Below, one piece after another: positions 2,724-23,870 of a DNA stretch of 64,000 nt (position 1 is its first letter; each line of letters opens with the position of its first letter). The notes under the pieces are model-generated. The model saw nothing but the letters and a program-made list of their open reading frames with translations, made no database searches and was not told the DNA's origin. Origin of the DNA: a virus; IMG/VR virus record IMGVR_UViG_3300032291_002944, positions 1-64,000 of that record; one strand, given 5' to 3'. A program made the translations under genes and the position numbers.

Positions 2724-3926
2724 TTAATTTCCTTTTGTTGGAAATTTTGTCCAACCATTAGTCCAAGTTGGTTTAGATAAAGTTTCAATTTCACTATTAG
2801 TTAAAGTTATTTCAGTATTACCTTCGCTCAACGCTTTTGTTTTAACATCATCTGATGTAATAATAGTAGTTGATTTACTAATAAAGTTTAATGAATTAAA
2901 TGAACCAATTTTATTGTTCTGAAATTTACTTACACCATCTTTGTAAAATTGTGCAGTTTCATTACTTTCCATTGAAAAACCACCTTTCATATATCCAATG
3001 ATTGTAGAATTATATACTTCAAATTGAGTTGCTCTTCTCCATCTCATTGCTAAATTGTGATTTGTTAAAGATGTCACATCGTTTGGTCCAACTAAAATCA
3101 TATTATCTAAAATAGGATGCGTAAATGGTTCTGCAGATGAACCTGTACCATCATTATCACACTCTACACCATTTCCTGCATCTCCGTTATCTACAAATTG
3201 TGGGTCTCTCTTTGATACTGAATACGATACTTTGCCTCTATATCCAAAATCAAAATCAAAATCATCATCTGCAGTTCCGTATGCGTATAAGTTTTTAGGT
3301 GAAACAGTTCCACCAAAGAACTCAAATGCATCATCGTTAGCGTATATAGTTTGAACATTTTCAATGATTGTTGTGCTACCAACTGCACCTAATGTTAATG
3401 CGTTAATTTCGGAGTTTGGCATTGCCGCAATACCAGCGTATTCAATACGAACATATTTTAAAATGCCACTATTATCTAAATCGTTAGTACCACCATAAGG
3501 TCTACCAATTCCACCTTCAATTGTTGGTTCTGATGTTCTATTAGTTTTAGCTCTACCTAATATAACAATACCACCCCAGTCGCCAGGAGTTCTTTCCCCA
3601 ACCGCTCTACCTGATGTAAAAACAATTGGTTTTGATGATGTTCCTTCTGCTATAATCTGAGCTCCTCTTTCAATACATAATGCTCCTTTTTCACTTATAT
3701 CTGACTTGATAATCGTTCCAGGTTGAATGATAAGTTTTGCCCCATCGGTTACATAAACATATCCCTTTAATACCCACTCTTTATCAGAAGTAAGGGTTGT
3801 AGTTGCGGTAATATTACCACTTAAAGTTGTTGATGTTGGTACATTGATTGGTGTGACCTCTCCACCTAAATCTTTAGAACATCCAAAGATTGTTAAAGTT
3901 GTTAATAATACTAATAATTTTTTCAT
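2724..3926 (-). CDS. Surface lipoprotein, beta-helix-like, partner of the TonB receptor
   Basis: A 400-residue protein with a lipoprotein signal: MKKLL, a hydrophobic core, then IFGC with the lipidated Cys at 16. The residues after it (SKDLGGE) are acidic, as in Bacteroidota lipoprotein export signals that send lipoproteins to the cell surface. The body has many short strands and turns (LIIQPGTIIKSD, GDWGGIVILG, AYGTADDDFDFDFG) typical of a right-handed beta-helix. Its start overlaps the stop of the TonB receptor gene by 4 nt (ATGA), so the two are translationally coupled, and a strong terminator follows. In Bacteroidota, genes of this kind often sit beside TonB-dependent receptors; the ligand is unknown. 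Finding it in a phage genome is surprising. Confidence 0.8.
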   Translation of the reverse strand: MKKLLVLLTTLTIFGCSKDLGGEVTPINVPTSTTLSGNITATTTLTSDKEWVLKGYVYVTDGAKLIIQPGTIIKSDISEKGALCIERGAQIIAEGTSSKPIVFTSGRAVGERTPGDWGGIVILGRAKTNRTSEPTIEGGIGRPYGGTNDLDNSGILKYVRIEYAGIAAMPNSEINALTLGAVGSTTIIENVQTIYANDDAFEFFGGTVSPKNLYAYGTADDDFDFDFGYRGKVSYSVSKRDPQFVDNGDAGNGVECDNDGTGSSAEPFTHPILDNMILVGPNDVTSLTNHNLAMRWRRATQFEVYNSTIIGYMKGGFSMESNETAQFYKDGVSKFQNNKIGSFNSLNFISKSTTIITSDDVKTKALSEGNTEITLTNSEIETLSKPTWTNGWTKFPTKGN

Positions 3927-6424
3927 AAGTTATAGTTTAATGTTAATGAAACTGTTGTTTCGTTGTTTATTTTAATTAAAGTACGATTTGGATTTTGGTA
4001 ATATTTAAATGGTTGTCTGAATATATCCGACACTGCTAATTTAATTTCTCCATTTTTGATTTTACGAAGGATAACTATGTCAATTACATCACGAGAGTTT
4101 TCAAATATATCAGGATATCCTTGAAATCCTACTGCAGATATTCTATCTCCAACTCTGTTGTATGATAAGTTTAATGTGTTGTTATTTTTATGTAAGTTTA
4201 ATCCTCCGTTTACTACATAGTTTGATTGACCTTGTAATTGTCTTTTTACTCCGTTTATGGAAACTTCTGAATTGATAAGTGATGTGTTTGAATATAAATC
4301 TAACCAATCGGTTAATTTTTTACGTAGTTCTATTTCAACTCCATATACTAAAGCGTCTTTTGGGTTTTTATATGTTAGTAGTAAATTTGATGGAACTGAA
4401 CCATCTGCAACAATTTGTTCAATTGGGTTAAAAAACTTTTTACCAAAGAAACCAATTGATATGTTTTCACCTGATTTTGGATATAATTCAAACTTTACGT
4501 CTGAATTGAATATATCAGTTTTTTGTAAGTTTGGATTTCCTAATAATTGAGCGTTACGAACAAAGTCATAATATGCAAAATTGGAAACTTCTCTAAATTC
4601 AGGTCTTGCTAATGTTTTACTTAAAGATAATCTAACCTTTGTTTTTTCACTTGTGGAGTAAGTTGCATTTAATGACGGTAATACATCCAAATATTCTCTA
4701 TCTACTGATATTTTTTGTCCACCAAAATCAGATGTTTGAACTTTAAATAAATTGTATTCAGTTCTAACACCTGTATTAATTTTTAATTTATTAATTTCTT
4801 TTTCATACATCACATATCCATTTGCCAAATCAAAATCTGCTGTATATCTATCAGTATTATTAGTTATTTCATTTAATAAATCAACCGATTCGTATCTAAA
4901 TATCCTTGCTTTGAACCCTCTTAATTTCTTCAAGTAACCTACGCCTAATCGAACATCTCCTATGGACTTGTTAAATCCCCCATTAAATGAGTTTTCATCC
5001 ATTACACTCCAAAAGCGATAGGTATCTCTCCATGCTATTGAGTACGGAGTTGATGTGTATAAAGATGATATGTAAGGTGTTACTCTATAATCAGGTTGGT
5101 CTCTTAACATAAGATTATAACCTACATTAAAATCCCAAGTTTTTAATTTTCCCTCAAATTGTGTGTTTAATACTAACTTTTGAATTGAGTTAGATGATTT
5201 ACTATCTACATATTGAACGTTATCGTAGTTTTCGCCAGTTCTACTTAAAAATGATTTTTCATTTTGGTAGTTGGTAAGTGTTTTCCAACTGTAACGATTT
5301 TCACCTAAATAAACAACATTTAATAATCCATTTAGAGATTGTACATTTGAGTAATTTAGGTCTTTGTAATTGTATGCCAATTCAGTTGATGATTGGTAAT
5401 CTAATCTTTCGGTCGTGTTTGCAGAATATGTGTTTCTTGCTGTTGAACTAAATAAAATGTTCCATTTGTTTTTAACAACACCAAATGATAAATTACCGTT
5501 TAAGTTTGGAATGGATGAAAACTCTTCTGATTGAGGTGACCCTATTAATTTAGTATACGCTCTTCTATCACCCAATCCCGCAATTCTATATGTGTTTGTT
5601 GATGGAAATGTTGTTGGGAAATGTATTGGGTCAACCAATTTAAAATCTTGTCCTGTTGACAATGAACCCCAGCTTCCTCCTAAAGATACGTTAAAAAAAT
5701 CTCCTGAAACTTCTTTTGTTGTTATTTGAACTAAACCACCTGCAAAATCACCTGGCAGATTTGCGGATGCTCCTTTGTTAATTATGATGTTATCAATTAG
5801 TGATGTAGGTATTATATCAAATGAGAATGCTCTTCTATCAGGTTCTGTTGATGGTAATTGTGTTTTGTTTAACAGGGCGGAATTATATCTATCTGCCAAA
5901 CCTCTAACTAATATAAACTTATCGTTTTGGATTGTTACACCACTAATTCTTTTGAGAGCATCTCCAACTGTTCTATCGGGTGTTTTTTTAATTGACTCAA
6001 TTGATAAACCATCAGCAACTATGTACGACGCTTTGAGTGTATTAATAAGTGCGGTTGATGTTTCTTTTTTTGATACTTGTTTGACAACTACCTCTTTTAA
6101 TTGAGTAGATTCTTCCTCTAATTTGAAGTCCAAATCATTTTTTTCTGAAGTAAAATAAACTTCTTTTTTTTCAAATGGTATATAACCAACTGAGGTAATT
6201 TTAACGGTGTAAGTAACATCAAGAATTACATTATTGACTTGAAAAATTCCTTTCTCATTTGCCGATGCTCCGTATCTATTTGAAATTGAAATTAATTGAA
6301 TTGTAGACCCAGGAAGAATTTCTCCTTTTTTGTCTTTTATCGTCCCACTAATGTTTGACGTTTTTATCTGTGAAAATCCCGTGATAGAAATCATCAAAGA
6401 TAAGAGTAATAATAGTTTTTTCAT
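3923..6424 (-). CDS. TonB-dependent outer-membrane receptor
   Basis: An 833-residue protein that looks complete. It has a signal peptide (about residues 1-18), a carboxypeptidase-like regulatory domain (SGTIKDKKGEILPGSTIQL at about 25-43, to about 100), a TonB plug (about 130-235, with RTVGDALKRISGV, LVRGLADRYNS and GDFAGGLVQITTKE), then a long beta-barrel of alternating strands to the C-terminus. This is the Bacteroidota type of active importer, driven by TonB-ExbB-ExbD, and it acts in the outer membrane with a surface lipoprotein partner, here the coupled downstream gene. No frameshift or missing segment is seen. Codon use and base composition look like the neighbours. The upstream 213 nt carry three inverted repeats, suggesting regulation. 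Possible roles: nutrient uptake during infection, or changing the host surface to exclude rival phages. Confidence 0.92.
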   Translation of the reverse strand: MKKLLLLLSLMISITGFSQIKTSNISGTIKDKKGEILPGSTIQLISISNRYGASANEKGIFQVNNVILDVTYTVKITSVGYIPFEKKEVYFTSEKNDLDFKLEEESTQLKEVVVKQVSKKETSTALINTLKASYIVADGLSIESIKKTPDRTVGDALKRISGVTIQNDKFILVRGLADRYNSALLNKTQLPSTEPDRRAFSFDIIPTSLIDNIIINKGASANLPGDFAGGLVQITTKEVSGDFFNVSLGGSWGSLSTGQDFKLVDPIHFPTTFPSTNTYRIAGLGDRRAYTKLIGSPQSEEFSSIPNLNGNLSFGVVKNKWNILFSSTARNTYSANTTERLDYQSSTELAYNYKDLNYSNVQSLNGLLNVVYLGENRYSWKTLTNYQNEKSFLSRTGENYDNVQYVDSKSSNSIQKLVLNTQFEGKLKTWDFNVGYNLMLRDQPDYRVTPYISSLYTSTPYSIAWRDTYRFWSVMDENSFNGGFNKSIGDVRLGVGYLKKLRGFKARIFRYESVDLLNEITNNTDRYTADFDLANGYVMYEKEINKLKINTGVRTEYNLFKVQTSDFGGQKISVDREYLDVLPSLNATYSTSEKTKVRLSLSKTLARPEFREVSNFAYYDFVRNAQLLGNPNLQKTDIFNSDVKFELYPKSGENISIGFFGKKFFNPIEQIVADGSVPSNLLLTYKNPKDALVYGVEIELRKKLTDWLDLYSNTSLINSEVSINGVKRQLQGQSNYVVNGGLNLHKNNNTLNLSYNRVGDRISAVGFQGYPDIFENSRDVIDIVILRKIKNGEIKLAVSDIFRQPFKYYQNPNRTLIKINNETTVSLTLNYNL

Positions 6425-7128: not shown

Positions 7129-7158
7129 TAAAAAAAAAGAACCTCAGAGAGATTCTTT
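7129..7158 (-). terminator. Rho-independent terminator of the tmRNA gene
   Basis: On the minus strand, AAAGAATCTC-TCT-GAGGTTCTTT is a 10-bp stem (one G-U) with a 3-nt loop followed by at least nine T. It lies 5 nt after the encoded CCA end of the tmRNA. Confidence 0.88.
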
Positions 7159-7163
7159 TTTAG

Positions 7164-7570
7164 TGGTGGAGGTGGCGAGATTCGAACTCGCGTGTTGCAA
7201 TATTAAAATACACAGACTACACGTTTATTCTATTAGTTCTTAATAGACAAATAATTGGTTCCTATTTTAACATTGTTACCAATAACTGTGTCGAGTTCAC
7301 TTTTACTAAGGTAGTCCTCTGAACGAGACCTTTTGATACACTAAGTAGTATCCACTTAAAGAGCTTCTGTTCCCAAGTTATATGCTCACCGACTCGTTTG
7401 TTAGTTCACTATTAAGCTACTGTAACACCAGCTTCTTTGGTTAAACCCAAAGCAGCTAATTTTGCAAATGTATTGCCTGTTATTCTTCTTTACCGTAGAT
7501 TTAAGTCATAGATAAAATCTGACTACGTGCCTGTATACCGTAACTATTCCAGTCAAAACCAGTCACCCCC
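7164..7570 (-). ncRNA. ssrA: tmRNA (ssrA), one-piece
   Basis: A 407-nt RNA gene for trans-translation, which rescues stalled ribosomes and tags the product. The ends form the alanyl-tRNA-like domain: 5' GGGGGTG pairs with 3' CACCTCC (one G-U), discriminator A, encoded CCA, and T arm GCGAG-TTCGAAT-CTCGC. The 5' ATACAG..GCACG can pair with 3' CGTGT..CTGTGTAT to make helix P2. The tag frame ends at tandem stops TAA TAG (7414-7409). Read back from there it encodes AKLAALGLTKEAGVTVA, or four more residues (GNTF) if translation resumes at GGC. This does not end in the usual ALAA/LAA. The gene has an exact Bacteroidota promoter upstream and a terminator downstream. The host certainly has its own copy, so this is a phage extra. 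Confidence 0.94.
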
Positions 7571-7593: not shown

Positions 7594-7624
7594 CAAATAT
7601 AAGAATAAATACATTACCGTCAAA
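7594..7624 (-). promoter_or_regulatory. Bacteroidota housekeeping-type promoter of the tmRNA
   Basis: On the minus strand, TTTG, then exactly 19 nt, then TATATTTG. This matches the Bacteroidota primary sigma consensus TTTG-N19-TAnnTTTG with no mismatch. The -7 box ends 23 nt before the mature 5' end, leaving a short leader for RNase P to remove. This indicates host-polymerase (early or constitutive) expression. Confidence 0.85.
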
Positions 7625-8832: not shown

Positions 8833-9669
8833 ATGACACAAAATCTAGATTTATTAAAAGAAGTTCTGAGCGTTCCTACGGTTACATATCATGAAGAACG
8901 TATGGTTGCCTTTTTAGAAAAATGGTTAACCGAAAACAACATACCTCATTATGTTGACAAACACAAGAATGTGTATGCAACCAAACAAGAATCCGAAACA
9001 TTACCTGAAGATTTTTATTTTCCATGTGTAGTTGCTCATACTGACACTGTACATGGTATTGATACAATTAATATTCGTGAAGAGAATTTACGTAATACTC
9101 AAAACCAACTTAAATTATCCTACAAAGCATATAATAATGAAGGTGAACCAACAGGTATTGGTGGTGACGATAAATGCGGAGTATTTGCTTGTTTAACTTT
9201 ATTAGAAGAATTACCTAATTTAAAAGCGGCATTCTTTGCATCTGAAGAATTAGGTTGTATTGGTTCATCAAAAGCAGATGAAAATTTTTTTAATAATGTT
9301 GGATATGCAATTCAGTTTGACGCACCTGAAAACTGGATGATTACAGAAAAATGTTTTGGACAAATTCTATTTGACAGAAATTCTGAATTCTTTGAAGCTT
9401 GTGATAAAGTTTTAACAGAAGGTATGATTAACGAAAACATGAAATACATGGTTCATCCATATACTGATGTTTATGCTTTACGAGGTAAATTTGATTTTTC
9501 ATGTATCAATTTTTCAATTGGATACTACAACTACCATACTAAAAACGAATACGTAATTGTAGATGACGTATTCAATGGAATTGATATGGGTCGTAAAATG
9601 ATTAAAGAACTCGGTAACAAGTTACACTACAAAAAATCAATTCCTTATGAATGGAAAAAACGTTATTGA
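8833..9669 (+). CDS. M20/M28-like metallopeptidase (di-zinc)
   Basis: A 278-residue protein with the ordered ligands of di-zinc aminopeptidases of the M20/M28/M42 clan: HTD (H69, D71), GGDDKCG (bridging D112), SEELG (general base E138 and ligand E139), FDAPE (D163) and a late YYNYH (H235). Its start, LKEVLSVPTVTYHEE, is typical of peptidase T/M20 enzymes. The usual dimerisation (lid) domain is short or missing, so it is more compact than peptidase T (about 400 residues). It may trim peptides in the infected cell or act on peptidoglycan-derived peptides; the substrate is unknown. It ends 2 nt from the convergent LamG gene. A phage-encoded M20-like peptidase is uncommon. Confidence 0.82.
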   Translation: MTQNLDLLKEVLSVPTVTYHEERMVAFLEKWLTENNIPHYVDKHKNVYATKQESETLPEDFYFPCVVAHTDTVHGIDTINIREENLRNTQNQLKLSYKAYNNEGEPTGIGGDDKCGVFACLTLLEELPNLKAAFFASEELGCIGSSKADENFFNNVGYAIQFDAPENWMITEKCFGQILFDRNSEFFEACDKVLTEGMINENMKYMVHPYTDVYALRGKFDFSCINFSIGYYNYHTKNEYVIVDDVFNGIDMGRKMIKELGNKLHYKKSIPYEWKKRY

Positions 9670-12531: not shown

Positions 12532-13191
12532 TTATAAAAAGTTTTCCAACTTATCTAAATGACGTTTTACGATTGGATGGTCTTGAATATCTGTAAATTC
12601 TATTCCAGCGTTTTTAAGTTCTTTAATTTGGCCAATAATTGTTTTAATACTACCCTTAACCATTTCTGACATAAAAGGATAATTTTCAATATATTGTGAT
12701 AGTTTAAATTGTTGTTTTGCAAAATCTAATGGGATATTTAAGGCCATTACAAGTTTTGCAACCATTTCTTTACCAAATCTGTCTGCATCCAATTCCATAT
12801 TCCAATATTTTTCATACAAAGTTTCAAAATCCTCTAAATCATAATCTGTTAATGGATTTTTTTCTTTGAATTCGGTCATTTGTTGTTCATGTCTCATTTC
12901 ATGAAAAATGGTGTAAAGAAAATCACCAATGGTATGCATATTTGATGGAGAACAAATGATTATTTGATTTTTTGTTCTTACTCCTCCAAACCCTGTGCTA
13001 CAAGAATTTAAAAATTTTATAGTGTAACCTTTTTCTTTGACGTAATTACCTACAAAGTTTTTGATTACGTCTGCTTTAGATTTTAATTCGTCAGGAAAGT
13101 TTTCTTTAAATTTATTAACTAATCTATCAAAGTTAGATTCTTTTGAAATTCCAATTTCCTCGTTCAATACTTTATGGATTAATTCTTTCAT
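12532..13191 (-). CDS. HExxH metallopeptidase-like protein
   Basis: A 219-residue protein with FHEMRHEQQ, a zinc-metallopeptidase HExxH motif (H97, E98, H101), and a downstream helix NMELDADRFG whose E133 or D136 could be the third ligand, as in ImmA/IrrE and related minigluzincins. It begins MKELIHKVLNEE, similar in style to the leader motif seen in other putative virion proteins of this phage. A TATTTATT motif 4 nt before the start places it with late genes. It could be packaged and act early on a host protein, or act in maturation; the substrate is unknown. Confidence 0.72.
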   Translation of the reverse strand: MKELIHKVLNEEIGISKESNFDRLVNKFKENFPDELKSKADVIKNFVGNYVKEKGYTIKFLNSCSTGFGGVRTKNQIIICSPSNMHTIGDFLYTIFHEMRHEQQMTEFKEKNPLTDYDLEDFETLYEKYWNMELDADRFGKEMVAKLVMALNIPLDFAKQQFKLSQYIENYPFMSEMVKGSIKTIIGQIKELKNAGIEFTDIQDHPIVKRHLDKLENFL

Positions 13192-13239: not shown

Positions 13240-15255
13240 CTATCTACCTTTTTTTTGAATTACGACATTTTCGTCAACAACTTTTAGAACATAAGTTTTA
13301 CCTTCAATTATATTCCCCATTAATACTTCATCCGATAACAAATCTTCAACTTTATCTTGAATTGCTCTTTTTAAAGGTCGTGCTCCATACAATTCATCAT
13401 AACCAACTTTAGATAAGTAATCAACCAAAGTATCTTCGTAAGAGATTTTGTATTTCATTTCATTCAAACGAGAAACTAACTTCTTAAGTTCAATTTCGGT
13501 GATTTTTTTAATATCATCGTTTGTTAAAGAGTTGAATACAATCGTATCATCAATACGGTTGATAAATTCAGGTGAGAAGAAATTTTTCATTTCTTTCATC
13601 AAGATTTCTTTTTTCATTTCTTCTTCACCATAAGAAGAACTTGAAAAACCAATACCTGTACCGAAGTCTTGTAACTTCTTCACACCTAAGTTTGAAGTCA
13701 AGATGATTAAGGTATTCTTGAAGTTAATCTTTCTACCTAGACTATCTGTTACGTGACCGTCATCCATAATTTGAAGTAAAATTGTAAACACGTCTTTGTG
13801 TGCTTTTTCAACCTCATCAAATAGGATAACCGAATATGGTTTGTTCTTAACTTTCTCAGTTAATAATCCACCTTCTTCATAACCAACATAGCCTGGAGGC
13901 GCTCCGACTAATTTGGATATGCTATGTTTCTCTTGGTACTCGGACATATCCACACGGATTAATGAGTCTTCACTACCAAACATTTCTTTTGCCAATTCTT
14001 TAGCTAAGTGAGTTTTACCAACACCCGTAGAACCTAAAAATACAAATGAACCAATAGGACGATTTGGGTTGTTAATTCCAAGACGATTTCTTTTAATAGA
14101 TTTTGCAATCTTAATAACAGCTGCGTCTTGGCCAATTACTTTACCAATTAATTCTTTATCCAAGTTCATTAAAGCCTTAGAATCATCTGCACTCATCTTA
14201 TTGACAGGAATTTTAGTCATATTAGACACAACATCATAAACACTCTCAAGAGTAATTTTTTGTTTGTCTTTAGACATCTTCTCCTCAAACTTAGCCTTCT
14301 CTGACTCAAGTTTAGATAATAATTTCTTTTCCTTATCTCTAAGCTCTGCTGCTTGTTCGTAGTTTTGTTTCTTAACTACGTCCAATTTTTGATTCTTAAT
14401 CTCAGCGGCTTGACGTTTAAGTTCTTCAATCGCTTCAGGAACTTTTAACTCAGTCTGCATTCTAGCCCCAACCTCATCCAAGATATCAAATGCTTTATCA
14501 GGAAACTCACGGTCAGTAATGTAACGGTCAGCAAGTTTCACACAGGTTTCAATAACCTCATCGCTATAAGATACCTTATGGAATTCTTCATACTTGTCAC
14601 GAACGTTTTTCAAAATTTGAATTGTTTCAGCAACTGTTGATGGGTCTACAATGACTTTTTGAAATCTACGTTCTAACGCTCCGTCCTTCTCAATGTTCTT
14701 ACGGAACTCATCTAATGTAGTTGCTCCAATACATTGAAGTTCACCACGGGATAAAGCTGGTTTAAAGATGTTTGAACCGTCCATAGAACCTGAAGAGTTA
14801 CCTGAACCAACCAAAGTATGAATCTCATCAATGAAAACAATGATGTTAGGATTCGCGTGAAGTTCTTCAATAATAACTTTCATTCTTTCTTCAAATTGTC
14901 CACGGTACTTTGTACCAGCAACAACTGAAGTTAAATCCAAGTTAACAATTCGTTTGTCAATTAAATTACGAGGGCAATCCCCGTTAACAATTTTGATAGC
15001 CAAACCTTCAACCAAAGCGGTCTTACCACAACCAGGTTCTCCGATGATGATAGGGTTATTTTTCTTTCTACGAGATAAAATTTGGGCAATTCTCAAAATT
15101 TCTCGTTCACGACCAATCACAGGGTCAAGTTTACCTTCAGCTGCTAATTTGTTTAAATCACGGCTAAAGTTATCCAAAACAGGTGTGTTGCTTTCGGAAG
15201 AAGCTTTTTGTTTTTTACTCATCATTTTGTCGTCGTCGTCCATTAAGTCGTTCAT
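13240..15255 (-). CDS. ClpC-like AAA+ unfoldase with UVR linker and ClpP-docking loop
   Basis: A 671-residue two-ring HSP100 protein. The first AAA module has GEPGCGKT (72-79) and FIDEIH (141-146). A linker carries a UVR-type helix (about 290-312, NYEQAAELRDKEKKLL), typical of ClpC. The second AAA module has GSTGVGKT (408-415), ILFDEVEKAH (477-486) and the GYVGYEEGG pore loop. The D2 insert has GIGFSS (IGF at 535-537), where ClpA, ClpC and ClpX carry the tripeptide that docks on ClpP. The usual N-terminal adaptor-binding domain (about 150 residues) is missing, replaced by an acidic start. No ClpP gene lies in the window, so it would use host ClpP. It is divergent from a UVR-domain protein that may be its adaptor. 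Confidence 0.93.
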   Translation of the reverse strand: MNDLMDDDDKMMSKKQKASSESNTPVLDNFSRDLNKLAAEGKLDPVIGREREILRIAQILSRRKKNNPIIIGEPGCGKTALVEGLAIKIVNGDCPRNLIDKRIVNLDLTSVVAGTKYRGQFEERMKVIIEELHANPNIIVFIDEIHTLVGSGNSSGSMDGSNIFKPALSRGELQCIGATTLDEFRKNIEKDGALERRFQKVIVDPSTVAETIQILKNVRDKYEEFHKVSYSDEVIETCVKLADRYITDREFPDKAFDILDEVGARMQTELKVPEAIEELKRQAAEIKNQKLDVVKKQNYEQAAELRDKEKKLLSKLESEKAKFEEKMSKDKQKITLESVYDVVSNMTKIPVNKMSADDSKALMNLDKELIGKVIGQDAAVIKIAKSIKRNRLGINNPNRPIGSFVFLGSTGVGKTHLAKELAKEMFGSEDSLIRVDMSEYQEKHSISKLVGAPPGYVGYEEGGLLTEKVKNKPYSVILFDEVEKAHKDVFTILLQIMDDGHVTDSLGRKINFKNTLIILTSNLGVKKLQDFGTGIGFSSSSYGEEEMKKEILMKEMKNFFSPEFINRIDDTIVFNSLTNDDIKKITEIELKKLVSRLNEMKYKISYEDTLVDYLSKVGYDELYGARPLKRAIQDKVEDLLSDEVLMGNIIEGKTYVLKVVDENVVIQKKGR

Positions 15256-15466: not shown

Positions 15467-15844
15467 ATGAAAAGAAATTATAATGACGTGTTCAGATTCA
15501 TTGATGAAATGTTTGGACAATTTGATTTTAACCCTACGGGTGGAGAGTGGAAAACTCAAACTAAAACATCTTCTGATGGGACAAGTAAAATAACGACCCA
15601 TTATTGGAGTAATGATAAATCAGATTCAAAAACTGAAAATGTCGAAAAATTGAAGGCTCAACTCGAATATGCGATTGAAAATGAAGATTTTGAATTAGCT
15701 GTTGCTTTGAGAGATAAAATTAAAGGTCTTGAAACAAACCGAGAATTAATTACAAAACTTGAATTGGAACTGAAACAATCTATACAAGAACAAAATTTTG
15801 AAAGGTCTATTGAAATTAGAGACCAATTAAGAAAACTAAAGTAA
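15467..15844 (+). CDS. Two-UVR-motif protein, possible ClpC adaptor
   Basis: A 125-residue protein. The first half (about 1-55) is variable and polar. The second half has two UVR helices in tandem: about 61-89 (ENEDFELAVALRDKIKGLE) and about 97-125 (QEQNFERSIEIRDQLRKLK). UVR motifs mediate contact between UvrB and UvrC and, in McsA, with ClpC. It lies back-to-back with a ClpC-like gene whose linker also carries a UVR helix, so an adaptor or regulator role for that unfoldase is a reasonable inference. It has a perfect host-type promoter and its own terminator, making it a single-gene early unit. The McsA zinc fingers (CxxC) are absent. Confidence 0.78.
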   Translation: MKRNYNDVFRFIDEMFGQFDFNPTGGEWKTQTKTSSDGTSKITTHYWSNDKSDSKTENVEKLKAQLEYAIENEDFELAVALRDKIKGLETNRELITKLELELKQSIQEQNFERSIEIRDQLRKLK

Positions 15845-22109: not shown

Positions 22110-23870
22110 GTGAATAAAGAACAACTAATAATTGAAGTTACGAAGTGCATGAGGAATACACCTTACGCACTTCGTACTTATTTACAGACATACGATAATA
22201 CAGTTTCAAAGTATGTCCCTTTAGACCTTTTCCCTGACCAAATATCTTTGATAGAAGATTACGACAATTACAATGAAAATATTGCTTTAAAGTACAGACA
22301 GGCAGGAGTTTCAACAGTAACGGCCGCTTGGGCATCTAAAAAATTAGCCTTTGCAAAAAAAACCAAGCCAGAAAAGATTCTAATAATTGCCAACAAACTT
22401 GATACGTCAATGGAGATGGCGAACAAAGTTAGAGGATTTGTTGAGCAATGGCCATCATGGGTAGGTATTGGATTCTCACAAGAGAAAAACTCACAAAGAC
22501 ACTTCAAACTAAATAATAATTGTGAAGTTAAGGCGGTTGCAACCTCAAAGGATGCACTACGTGGTTATACCCCAACAATTCTTATATTTGATGAAGCGGC
22601 CTTTATTGAAGCTGACAGTGATTTCTGGTCAGCTTGTATGGCTTCACTATCTACGGGTGGTAAAGTAATTGTGGTATCTACGCCAAATGGTTATGATGCA
22701 ATCTATTACGAAATCTATGACCAAGCATTAAGAGGAATGAATGATTTTAAAATCTCTGAAATGTATTGGCATCGTGACCCTCGTTACACAAAAGACTTGT
22801 ATATGGTTAAAACCAATGATTTGGTTCACTATCTATTAAATAGAGAAGATTATCCTAAAGATGTTGTAATAGATTTATCTATGAATAATCCATATGATAG
22901 AGACCATTCTGTAGTAACAAAGTACATTGAGGATGGGTACAAACCATGTTCTGCCTGGTTTGAAGGTATGGTTAAAAAATTAAAATACGATAGACGTAAA
23001 GTAGCACAAGAATTAGAGTGTAATTTTTTGGGTTCAGGTGATAACGTATTTGATTCTGAGTTAATGCAAAATATTGCTAAAAATCAACTTAGAGAACCTC
23101 AAGCAAAGTTAATGGGTAGTGGATTATGGATATTCAAAGAACCTGTTAACGGCCATAAGTATGTGATGGGTGTTGACGTTTCAAGAGGAGACTCTGAAGA
23201 CTTTTCATCTATCCAAATTATTGATTTTGACGAAAGAGAACAAGTATTAGAATATGTGGGGAAAGTACCGCCAGATGTTTTGGCAGAAATTGCCTACAAA
23301 TGGGGTACAATGTATAATGCCTATTGCGTGGTTGACTTAACTGGTGGTATGGGTGTTGCAACTGCAAGAAAATTACAAGAATTGTCTTATCAAGGTGGTT
23401 TCTATATTGATGGTGTTGATACCAGTAATAAATGGAAATGGGACCCAAAAGTTAATGACAAGATTCCTGGGATTAACTTTAACGCAAAAAGAGTTCAAAT
23501 TATATCCGCCCTTGAGGAGGCTTGTAGACATGGATTTAGAATCTATTCAAATAGAACCTATAACGAAATGAATACTTTTATTTATATCCATGGTAGACCT
23601 GACCACCAAAAAGGACACCATGATGACTGTATTATGGGTTTATCTATGGCAATTTATGTTGCAGAAAAATCATTCCAATCATTAGAAAAAGTAACTAATC
23701 ATACTAAGGCAATGATTAATTCTTGGTCAACCGCAGTTAATGAAAATAAAAACTCATCTGAGTTTTTCAATCCATTGGTTCCTCAAATGGGTAGAGATAG
23801 TATGGGACATAACAGAAGCACATCAAAAGAGGATTATCAAAAATATGGATGGTTATTTGGTGCTAGATAA
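22110..23870 (+). CDS. Terminase large subunit (gp17-like)
   Basis: A 586-residue DNA-packaging motor. The start is GTG at 22110; no in-frame ATG is nearby upstream, and the reading frame and spacing fit. ATPase: YRQAGVST (62-69) is the Walker A region in the variant form with the Lys replaced and an Arg earlier; LIFDEA (158-163) is Walker B; VVSTPNG (188-194) is the coupling motif. The C-terminal nuclease has GVDVSRGD (acidic D356), VVDLTGG (D409) and GHHDDCIMG (D505/D506). The length is near that of T4 gp17 (610). It packages DNA through the portal, encoded directly downstream as in T4. Confidence 0.95.
   Translation: MNKEQLIIEVTKCMRNTPYALRTYLQTYDNTVSKYVPLDLFPDQISLIEDYDNYNENIALKYRQAGVSTVTAAWASKKLAFAKKTKPEKILIIANKLDTSMEMANKVRGFVEQWPSWVGIGFSQEKNSQRHFKLNNNCEVKAVATSKDALRGYTPTILIFDEAAFIEADSDFWSACMASLSTGGKVIVVSTPNGYDAIYYEIYDQALRGMNDFKISEMYWHRDPRYTKDLYMVKTNDLVHYLLNREDYPKDVVIDLSMNNPYDRDHSVVTKYIEDGYKPCSAWFEGMVKKLKYDRRKVAQELECNFLGSGDNVFDSELMQNIAKNQLREPQAKLMGSGLWIFKEPVNGHKYVMGVDVSRGDSEDFSSIQIIDFDEREQVLEYVGKVPPDVLAEIAYKWGTMYNAYCVVDLTGGMGVATARKLQELSYQGGFYIDGVDTSNKWKWDPKVNDKIPGINFNAKRVQIISALEEACRHGFRIYSNRTYNEMNTFIYIHGRPDHQKGHHDDCIMGLSMAIYVAEKSFQSLEKVTNHTKAMINSWSTAVNENKNSSEFFNPLVPQMGRDSMGHNRSTSKEDYQKYGWLFGAR

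Follow-up and report, generated by a model that had tools for sequence, protein, structure and literature searches.

A viral DNA stretch of 64,000 nucleotides (the window; positions 1 to 64,000 of IMG/VR record IMGVR_UViG_3300032291_002944, which is 69,380 bases long and has T4-like terminase, portal, and major head proteins) almost certainly carries, at positions 7164 to 7570, a genuine tmRNA gene whose tag is 21 residues long. Sequence comparison with related phages gives good support to the view that this tag is selected as a peptide. The best explanation, which we put slightly below an even chance, is phage-controlled trans-translation with a tag that is read by a phage ClpCP; we infer both the recognition of the tag by ClpCP and the benefit to the phage.

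The tmRNA gene and its reading frame

The gene and its elements lie on the minus strand, as follows.
7164..7570 (-), one-piece tmRNA gene with encoded CCA (ARAGORN and RF00023)
7133..7161 (-), intrinsic terminator, directly 3' of the CCA (fold z -4.7)
7594..7624 (-), Bacteroidota-type promoter TTTG-N19-TATATTTG (motif scan)
7504..7524 (-), pseudoknot 1 helix 3, AGUCA 7524-7520 with UGACU 7508-7504 (pairing in relatives)
7488..7517 (-), pseudoknot 1 helix 4, UUUUAUC 7517-7511 with GGUAAAG 7494-7488 (read from the sequence)
7481 (-), A four nucleotides before the resume codon, counterpart of E. coli A86 (conservation in relatives)
7415..7477 (-), tag frame, 21 codons from GGC (7477-7475), GNTFAKLAALGLTKEAGVTVA, with stops TAA TAG TGA at 7414-7406
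7427..7460 (-), hairpin of helix 5, within the tag frame (fold z -4.3, alignment with host tmRNA)

A preliminary description had placed a phage tmRNA with complete ends here, and its coordinates and strand were confirmed by an RF00023 covariance-model match that runs end to end (positions 1-374) at 77.9 bits against a cut-off of 47 (E 1.5e-28). Read directly, the acceptor stem of the window tmRNA is GGGGGUG/CACCUCC and includes G3:U70 (7568 and 7170). This AlaRS pair is present in 72 of 81 relatives, and an acceptor stem of at least six pairs is likewise found in 72. The promoter ends 23 bases upstream of the gene. Its strict motif is not rare in the window (5 seen versus 3.1 expected), but when slightly relaxed the motif precedes 65 of the 86 distinct homologous tmRNAs, versus 1.2 expected. 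With a promoter and a terminator of its own, the gene is predicted to be a separate transcription unit. Helix 3 forms its five pairs in every one of 79 sequences, and each pair shows compensatory changes; in the alignment, helix 4 shows a U-A to C-G exchange between the window and relative L084. The decayed gene that the preliminary description had allowed for is ruled out by the helix 3 covariation, the acceptor stem, the promoter, and the terminator. Compared with its nearest relative, L094, the window has an almost unchanged inner tmRNA region but strongly divergent 5' and 3' tRNA-like ends, a pattern suggesting that the tRNA-like domain was exchanged through recombination.

The position of the resume codon follows from several lines of evidence. 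In the RF00023 alignment, GGC falls on the consensus resume codon. All 73 distinct upstream sequences have an A at -4 from this GGC and a T or C at -5. In E. coli, A86, four nucleotides before the resume codon, is the "ruler" that sets the frame (PMC2481249). Because the model alignment, the A at -4, and the helix 3 pairing together fix GGC, the tag should read as listed above, preceded by the tmRNA-borne alanine. The resume frame is open in all 49 distinct sequences of the larger pattern-selected group described below (group 1), whereas stops interrupt the two alternative frames in 46 and 47 of them. Resumption at GGC and a noncanonical tag without an ALAA ending, both proposed beforehand, were thus upheld; an ALAA end reached from another resume codon or in another frame was looked for and is ruled out by the alignment, the A at -4, and the stops in the other frames. 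A UAA in the helix-5 loop was also rejected as the phage stop, being out of frame, derived from UUA-ACN codons, and absent in the CUU-AUC subgroups. The tandem stops TAA TAG reported earlier are indeed present and are followed by TGA. They are confined to the window and its nearest relative, most relatives closing the frame with just one TAA, TGA, or TAG, so we regard them as a local detail outside the conserved design.

Spread and constraint of the long tag

Chromosomal tmRNAs of Bacteroidota (RF00023; tags such as GENNYALAA) share with the phage gene the one-piece form, a GGC resume codon in an AAUAAC(U/A) context, the first nine tag residues in register, a helix 5 that starts at codons 8-9, and G3:U70. 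Their tags end in LAA or MAA, at a UAA that follows codon 9 within the helix-5 loop; among the 30 best-scoring loci of a phylum sample, a nonrandom draw, 28 Bacteroidota tags have 9-10 residues and end in LAA or MAA. In contrast, the phage tag runs 12-13 codons further, through the loop and 3' strand of helix 5, and lacks LAA; in the window the hairpin spans tag codons 7-17. The earlier reading of a Bacteroidota-like nine-residue start continued by 12 more residues therefore holds, since the start is in register with host tags and the stop comes 12 codons later. The marks of a canonical ssrA degradation tag (about 10 residues, an LAA-like end, and a stop in the helix-5 region) are absent from the phage tag.

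We collected homologous tags from IMG/VR by two DNA patterns. The first, built from the first 13 tag codons, gave 80 loci among the matches listed (group 1), with 21 residues in all but one, which has 22. The second used the first eight tag codons only and gave 40 loci (group 2), all with tags of 21-22 residues. At least 120 pattern-selected records hold a homologous tag with an open frame and a stop at 21-22 residues, and these encode 50 distinct peptides. A sample independent of the tag, obtained by searching terminase relatives for tmRNAs, gave ten tmRNAs, and each of the ten has a tag of 21 or 22 residues. The first-13-codon pattern had no match in GTDB genome contigs, and on this ground we ruled out acquisition of the tag from cellular genomes.

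Constraint on the peptide was measured outside the search patterns. For codons 9-21 of group 2, pN/pS is 0.35 in the resume frame versus 0.96 and 1.64 in the other two frames. We discounted pN/pS for codons 1-13 of group 1, because the residues there were selected by the search pattern; for the last five codons of this group the ratio is about 1. K6, G11, L12, and E15 are invariant in the 62 distinct 21-residue forms, of which K6 lies inside both search patterns and the other three lie outside the group 2 pattern, and the last residues are variable. The 22-residue forms have Q in place of E15. The conserved core is K..A.LGL..E, with variable inner positions, and is followed by a small hydrophobic C terminus; the commonest ends are VAA, VTA, VVA, and VGA, TVA, VTI, VEA, and VKA also occur, and LAA is absent from the C terminus. 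The group 2 and 22-residue forms have a different fold and keep GL at 11-12 through different codons. Three tag codons differ between the window and L094, all synonymously, and two of these changes (TTG/TTA and ACC/ACT) swap G-C for A-U in helix 5, which indicates that both the peptide and the hairpin are kept.

Other phage-encoded tmRNAs differ from those of this clade. The Bxz1-like Mycobacterium phage Alice also has a long tag without an LAA end (25 residues, ATDTDATVTDAEIEAFFAEEAAALV), but its sequence is unrelated and its genome has no Clp ATPase match. The tags of Bacillus phage G (AKLNITNNELQVA) and Streptomyces phage Jay2Jay (ANSNVAFALAA) have only 13 and 11 residues; phage G has a ClpX-sized match, and Jay2Jay has no Clp ATPase match. 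OM43 phage Melnitz has a two-piece tmRNA, for which protein tagging for recycling has already been proposed (PMC9004378), and tmRNA plus SmpB has been reported from huge phages (PMC7162821). The tmRNA-like molecule of Mycobacterium phage DS6A also departs from the host form but consists of the tRNA-like domain only, without a tag frame, and a similar molecule inhibits tmRNA (PMC4131195). A recent survey, with a tmRNA database of 97,179 sequences, gives 79 phage sequences and a commonest tag length of 10 (PMC11915505). In the literature we found no description of a conserved long phage tag of this kind and nothing specific on a phage tmRNA together with phage Clp. Neither blastn with the window tmRNA nor tblastn with two tags returned an annotated phage relative, the latter being weak evidence because a 21-residue query is insensitive. 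The novelty of the clade tag is judged against the collections searched.

Huge phage LR756508 has a 447-nt tmRNA (L254 1501-1947; 92434-92880), a ClpC with 51% identity, and a weak match to ClpP. Read from GGC, this tmRNA would encode a tag of 36 residues with the end PAAV, for which a pattern scan found no relatives; ARAGORN reads another frame. Two short tmRNA-like matches above the Rfam cut-off, L255 (LR756508 414804-414915) and L256 (LR756511 2250-2386), are apparently tRNA-like domains only, as in DS6A. Huge phages LR745206 and LR756502 have ClpC and no tmRNA above the cut-off. Together with Alice, these two show that long tags are not unique to the clade and that long tag and Clp are separable.

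Phage Clp proteins and neighboring genes

Several genes near the tmRNA gene may bear on the fate of tagged proteins or on the host.
13240..15255 (-), ClpC unfoldase of 671 aa that lacks the N-domain and has an IGF tripeptide; candidate tag reader (domain and structure-sequence matches)
15467..15844 (+), McsA-like small protein carrying two UVR motifs, encoded divergently from clpC (domain match)
12532-13191 (-), HEMRHE (HExxH) protein beside clpC
8833..9669 (+), M20-type peptidase (Pfam 1.4e-4, just under the cut-off; PepT-like 1.6e-6)
2724-6424 (-), TonB-dependent receptor (833 aa) and adjoining secreted protein, apparent cargo

The window ClpC shares with Firmicutes ClpC (6em8) both AAA+ modules, which carry Walker motifs, and the UVR-bearing middle region, and it has a ClpP-docking tripeptide; the ClpP of relatives shares its catalytic triad with Firmicutes ClpP (1y7o). 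However, the N-terminal adaptor-binding domain of Firmicutes ClpC is missing: the phage protein has no Clp_N match, and it aligns with S. aureus ClpC from residue 146 onward. The docking tripeptide IGF is present in 72 of 75 clpC readings, duplicates included. A ClpC-like unfoldase was found in 60 of the 68 records searched and a Clp_protease domain (ClpP) in 22 of 32 clade records, at about 1e-58, with the Ser-His-Asp triad intact in all six relatives read. Fourteen fragments that bear the tmRNA are 100 kb or longer, some of them near-duplicates; all 14 have ClpC and ten have ClpP, and the other four gave no ClpP match. In relative G036, whose ClpC is 96% identical to that of the window, clpP is found some 16 kb past the tmRNA gene, a position whose equivalent falls outside the window's record. 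We rejected co-occurrence of ClpC and tmRNA as proof of function, since almost every clade member has ClpC and the fragments are partly redundant, so that co-occurrence does not separate shared ancestry from function. SmpB was found in 1 of 44 clade records (L280, in G075, 22121-22555), directly downstream of the tmRNA gene, so the remaining members would need host SmpB.

The UVR protein is a possible partner of ClpC; in G075 an Hsp20 gene stands beside clpC at its position. The HEMRHE protein is kept in G036 and G075, had no family match in the libraries tried, and is possibly a metalloprotease. The M20-type peptidase might serve peptide recycling, and its membership in the module is uncertain. 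In G075, the receptor-like gene close to the tmRNA gene is a different one. We rejected the TonB receptor gene as a basis for host assignment, since it gave one weak Chitinophagaceae match; the Bacteroidota-type promoter and the type of the tmRNA point to probable Bacteroidota hosts for this clade of T4-like phages.

Possible fates of tagged proteins

The proposed pathway would begin with a Bacteroidota-type tmRNA ancestor in which the tag stop shifted from the helix-5 loop to beyond the hairpin. The phage tmRNA would be charged by host AlaRS and loaded into stalled ribosomes by host SmpB; resumption at GGC and read-through of helix 5 would then add alanine plus a tag of 21-22 residues. The nine-residue host-like start would no longer be terminal and would be followed by the conserved core and the small hydrophobic C terminus. 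As a tmRNA is already present in the host, selection has most likely acted on the tag. Rescued proteins would most likely be handed to the phage-controlled N-domain-less ClpC with phage ClpP, and this ClpCP would replace or compete with host machinery that reads a C-terminal LAA. The presence of ClpP in relatives, the retention of IGF in phage ClpC, and the internal position of the conserved part of the tag favor reading by the phage unfoldase. This internal position, as opposed to the C terminus that host ClpX reads, also counts for avoidance of host ClpXP. Escape of the tag from host ClpXP and its reading by the phage unfoldase, as proposed beforehand, are plausible but unproven. A phage-private trans-translation, in which phage ClpCP reads the internal motif and rescued proteins are diverted from host proteolysis, is possible, and we hold it tentatively, at clearly less than an even chance. 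A tight link between tag and Clp is disfavored by Alice, which has no Clp ATPase match, and by the two huge phages that have ClpC without a full tmRNA. Several clade tags ending in -VAA could be host degrons, which counts against such a link as well, and phage ClpC and ClpP may have other substrates.

The tag might instead be an ordinary host degron, read by ClpXP or ClpAP/ClpCP through its small hydrophobic C terminus, with the phage tmRNA as extra rescue capacity and the added residues as an accident of the lineage. LVA and AVAA ends are known degrons, the commonest clade ends are of the -VAA, -VTA, -VVA, and -VGA type, and the host retains its own Clp system. We consider this account unlikely, although it has to be taken seriously, because the C terminus is the least conserved part of the tag and also occurs as VTI, VEA, and VKA, while the tag length is fixed and the four core residues are invariant in the 21-residue forms. 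The tmRNA might serve rescue only, with stable or neutral products and with phage proteins and protease capacity spared in infection. Survival of E. coli rests on ribosome release and not on degradation (review, PMC8012679), and the loss of LAA fits this reading, but we find it rather doubtful, since a neutral tag needs neither peptide constraint nor a fixed length over 12 extra codons.

That the amino acid conservation is a by-product of RNA structure in helix 5 and its neighbors seems improbable. Codons 7-17 do lie within the hairpin, but the constraint is frame specific, the group 2 and 22-residue forms fold otherwise and still have GL at 11-12 with other codons, and the compensatory pair that separates the window from L094 is synonymous. 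The internal, adaptor-binding-motif-like position of the conserved part would also suit a nonproteolytic mark, such as one for a phage binding partner or for localization; no candidate partner was identified and solved structures offered no convincing relative of the tag, and we give this reading very little credence.

This clade turns the question of why phages carry tmRNA genes into a direct biochemical one, namely, whether phage ClpCP reads the tag while host ClpXP does not. It combines a conserved, peptide-constrained, non-host tag with an unfoldase and a peptidase of its own, and its tags indicate that a tmRNA tag can extend through helix 5 and remain so across a large clade. The tag and phage ClpCP could yield an orthogonal degron-protease pair.
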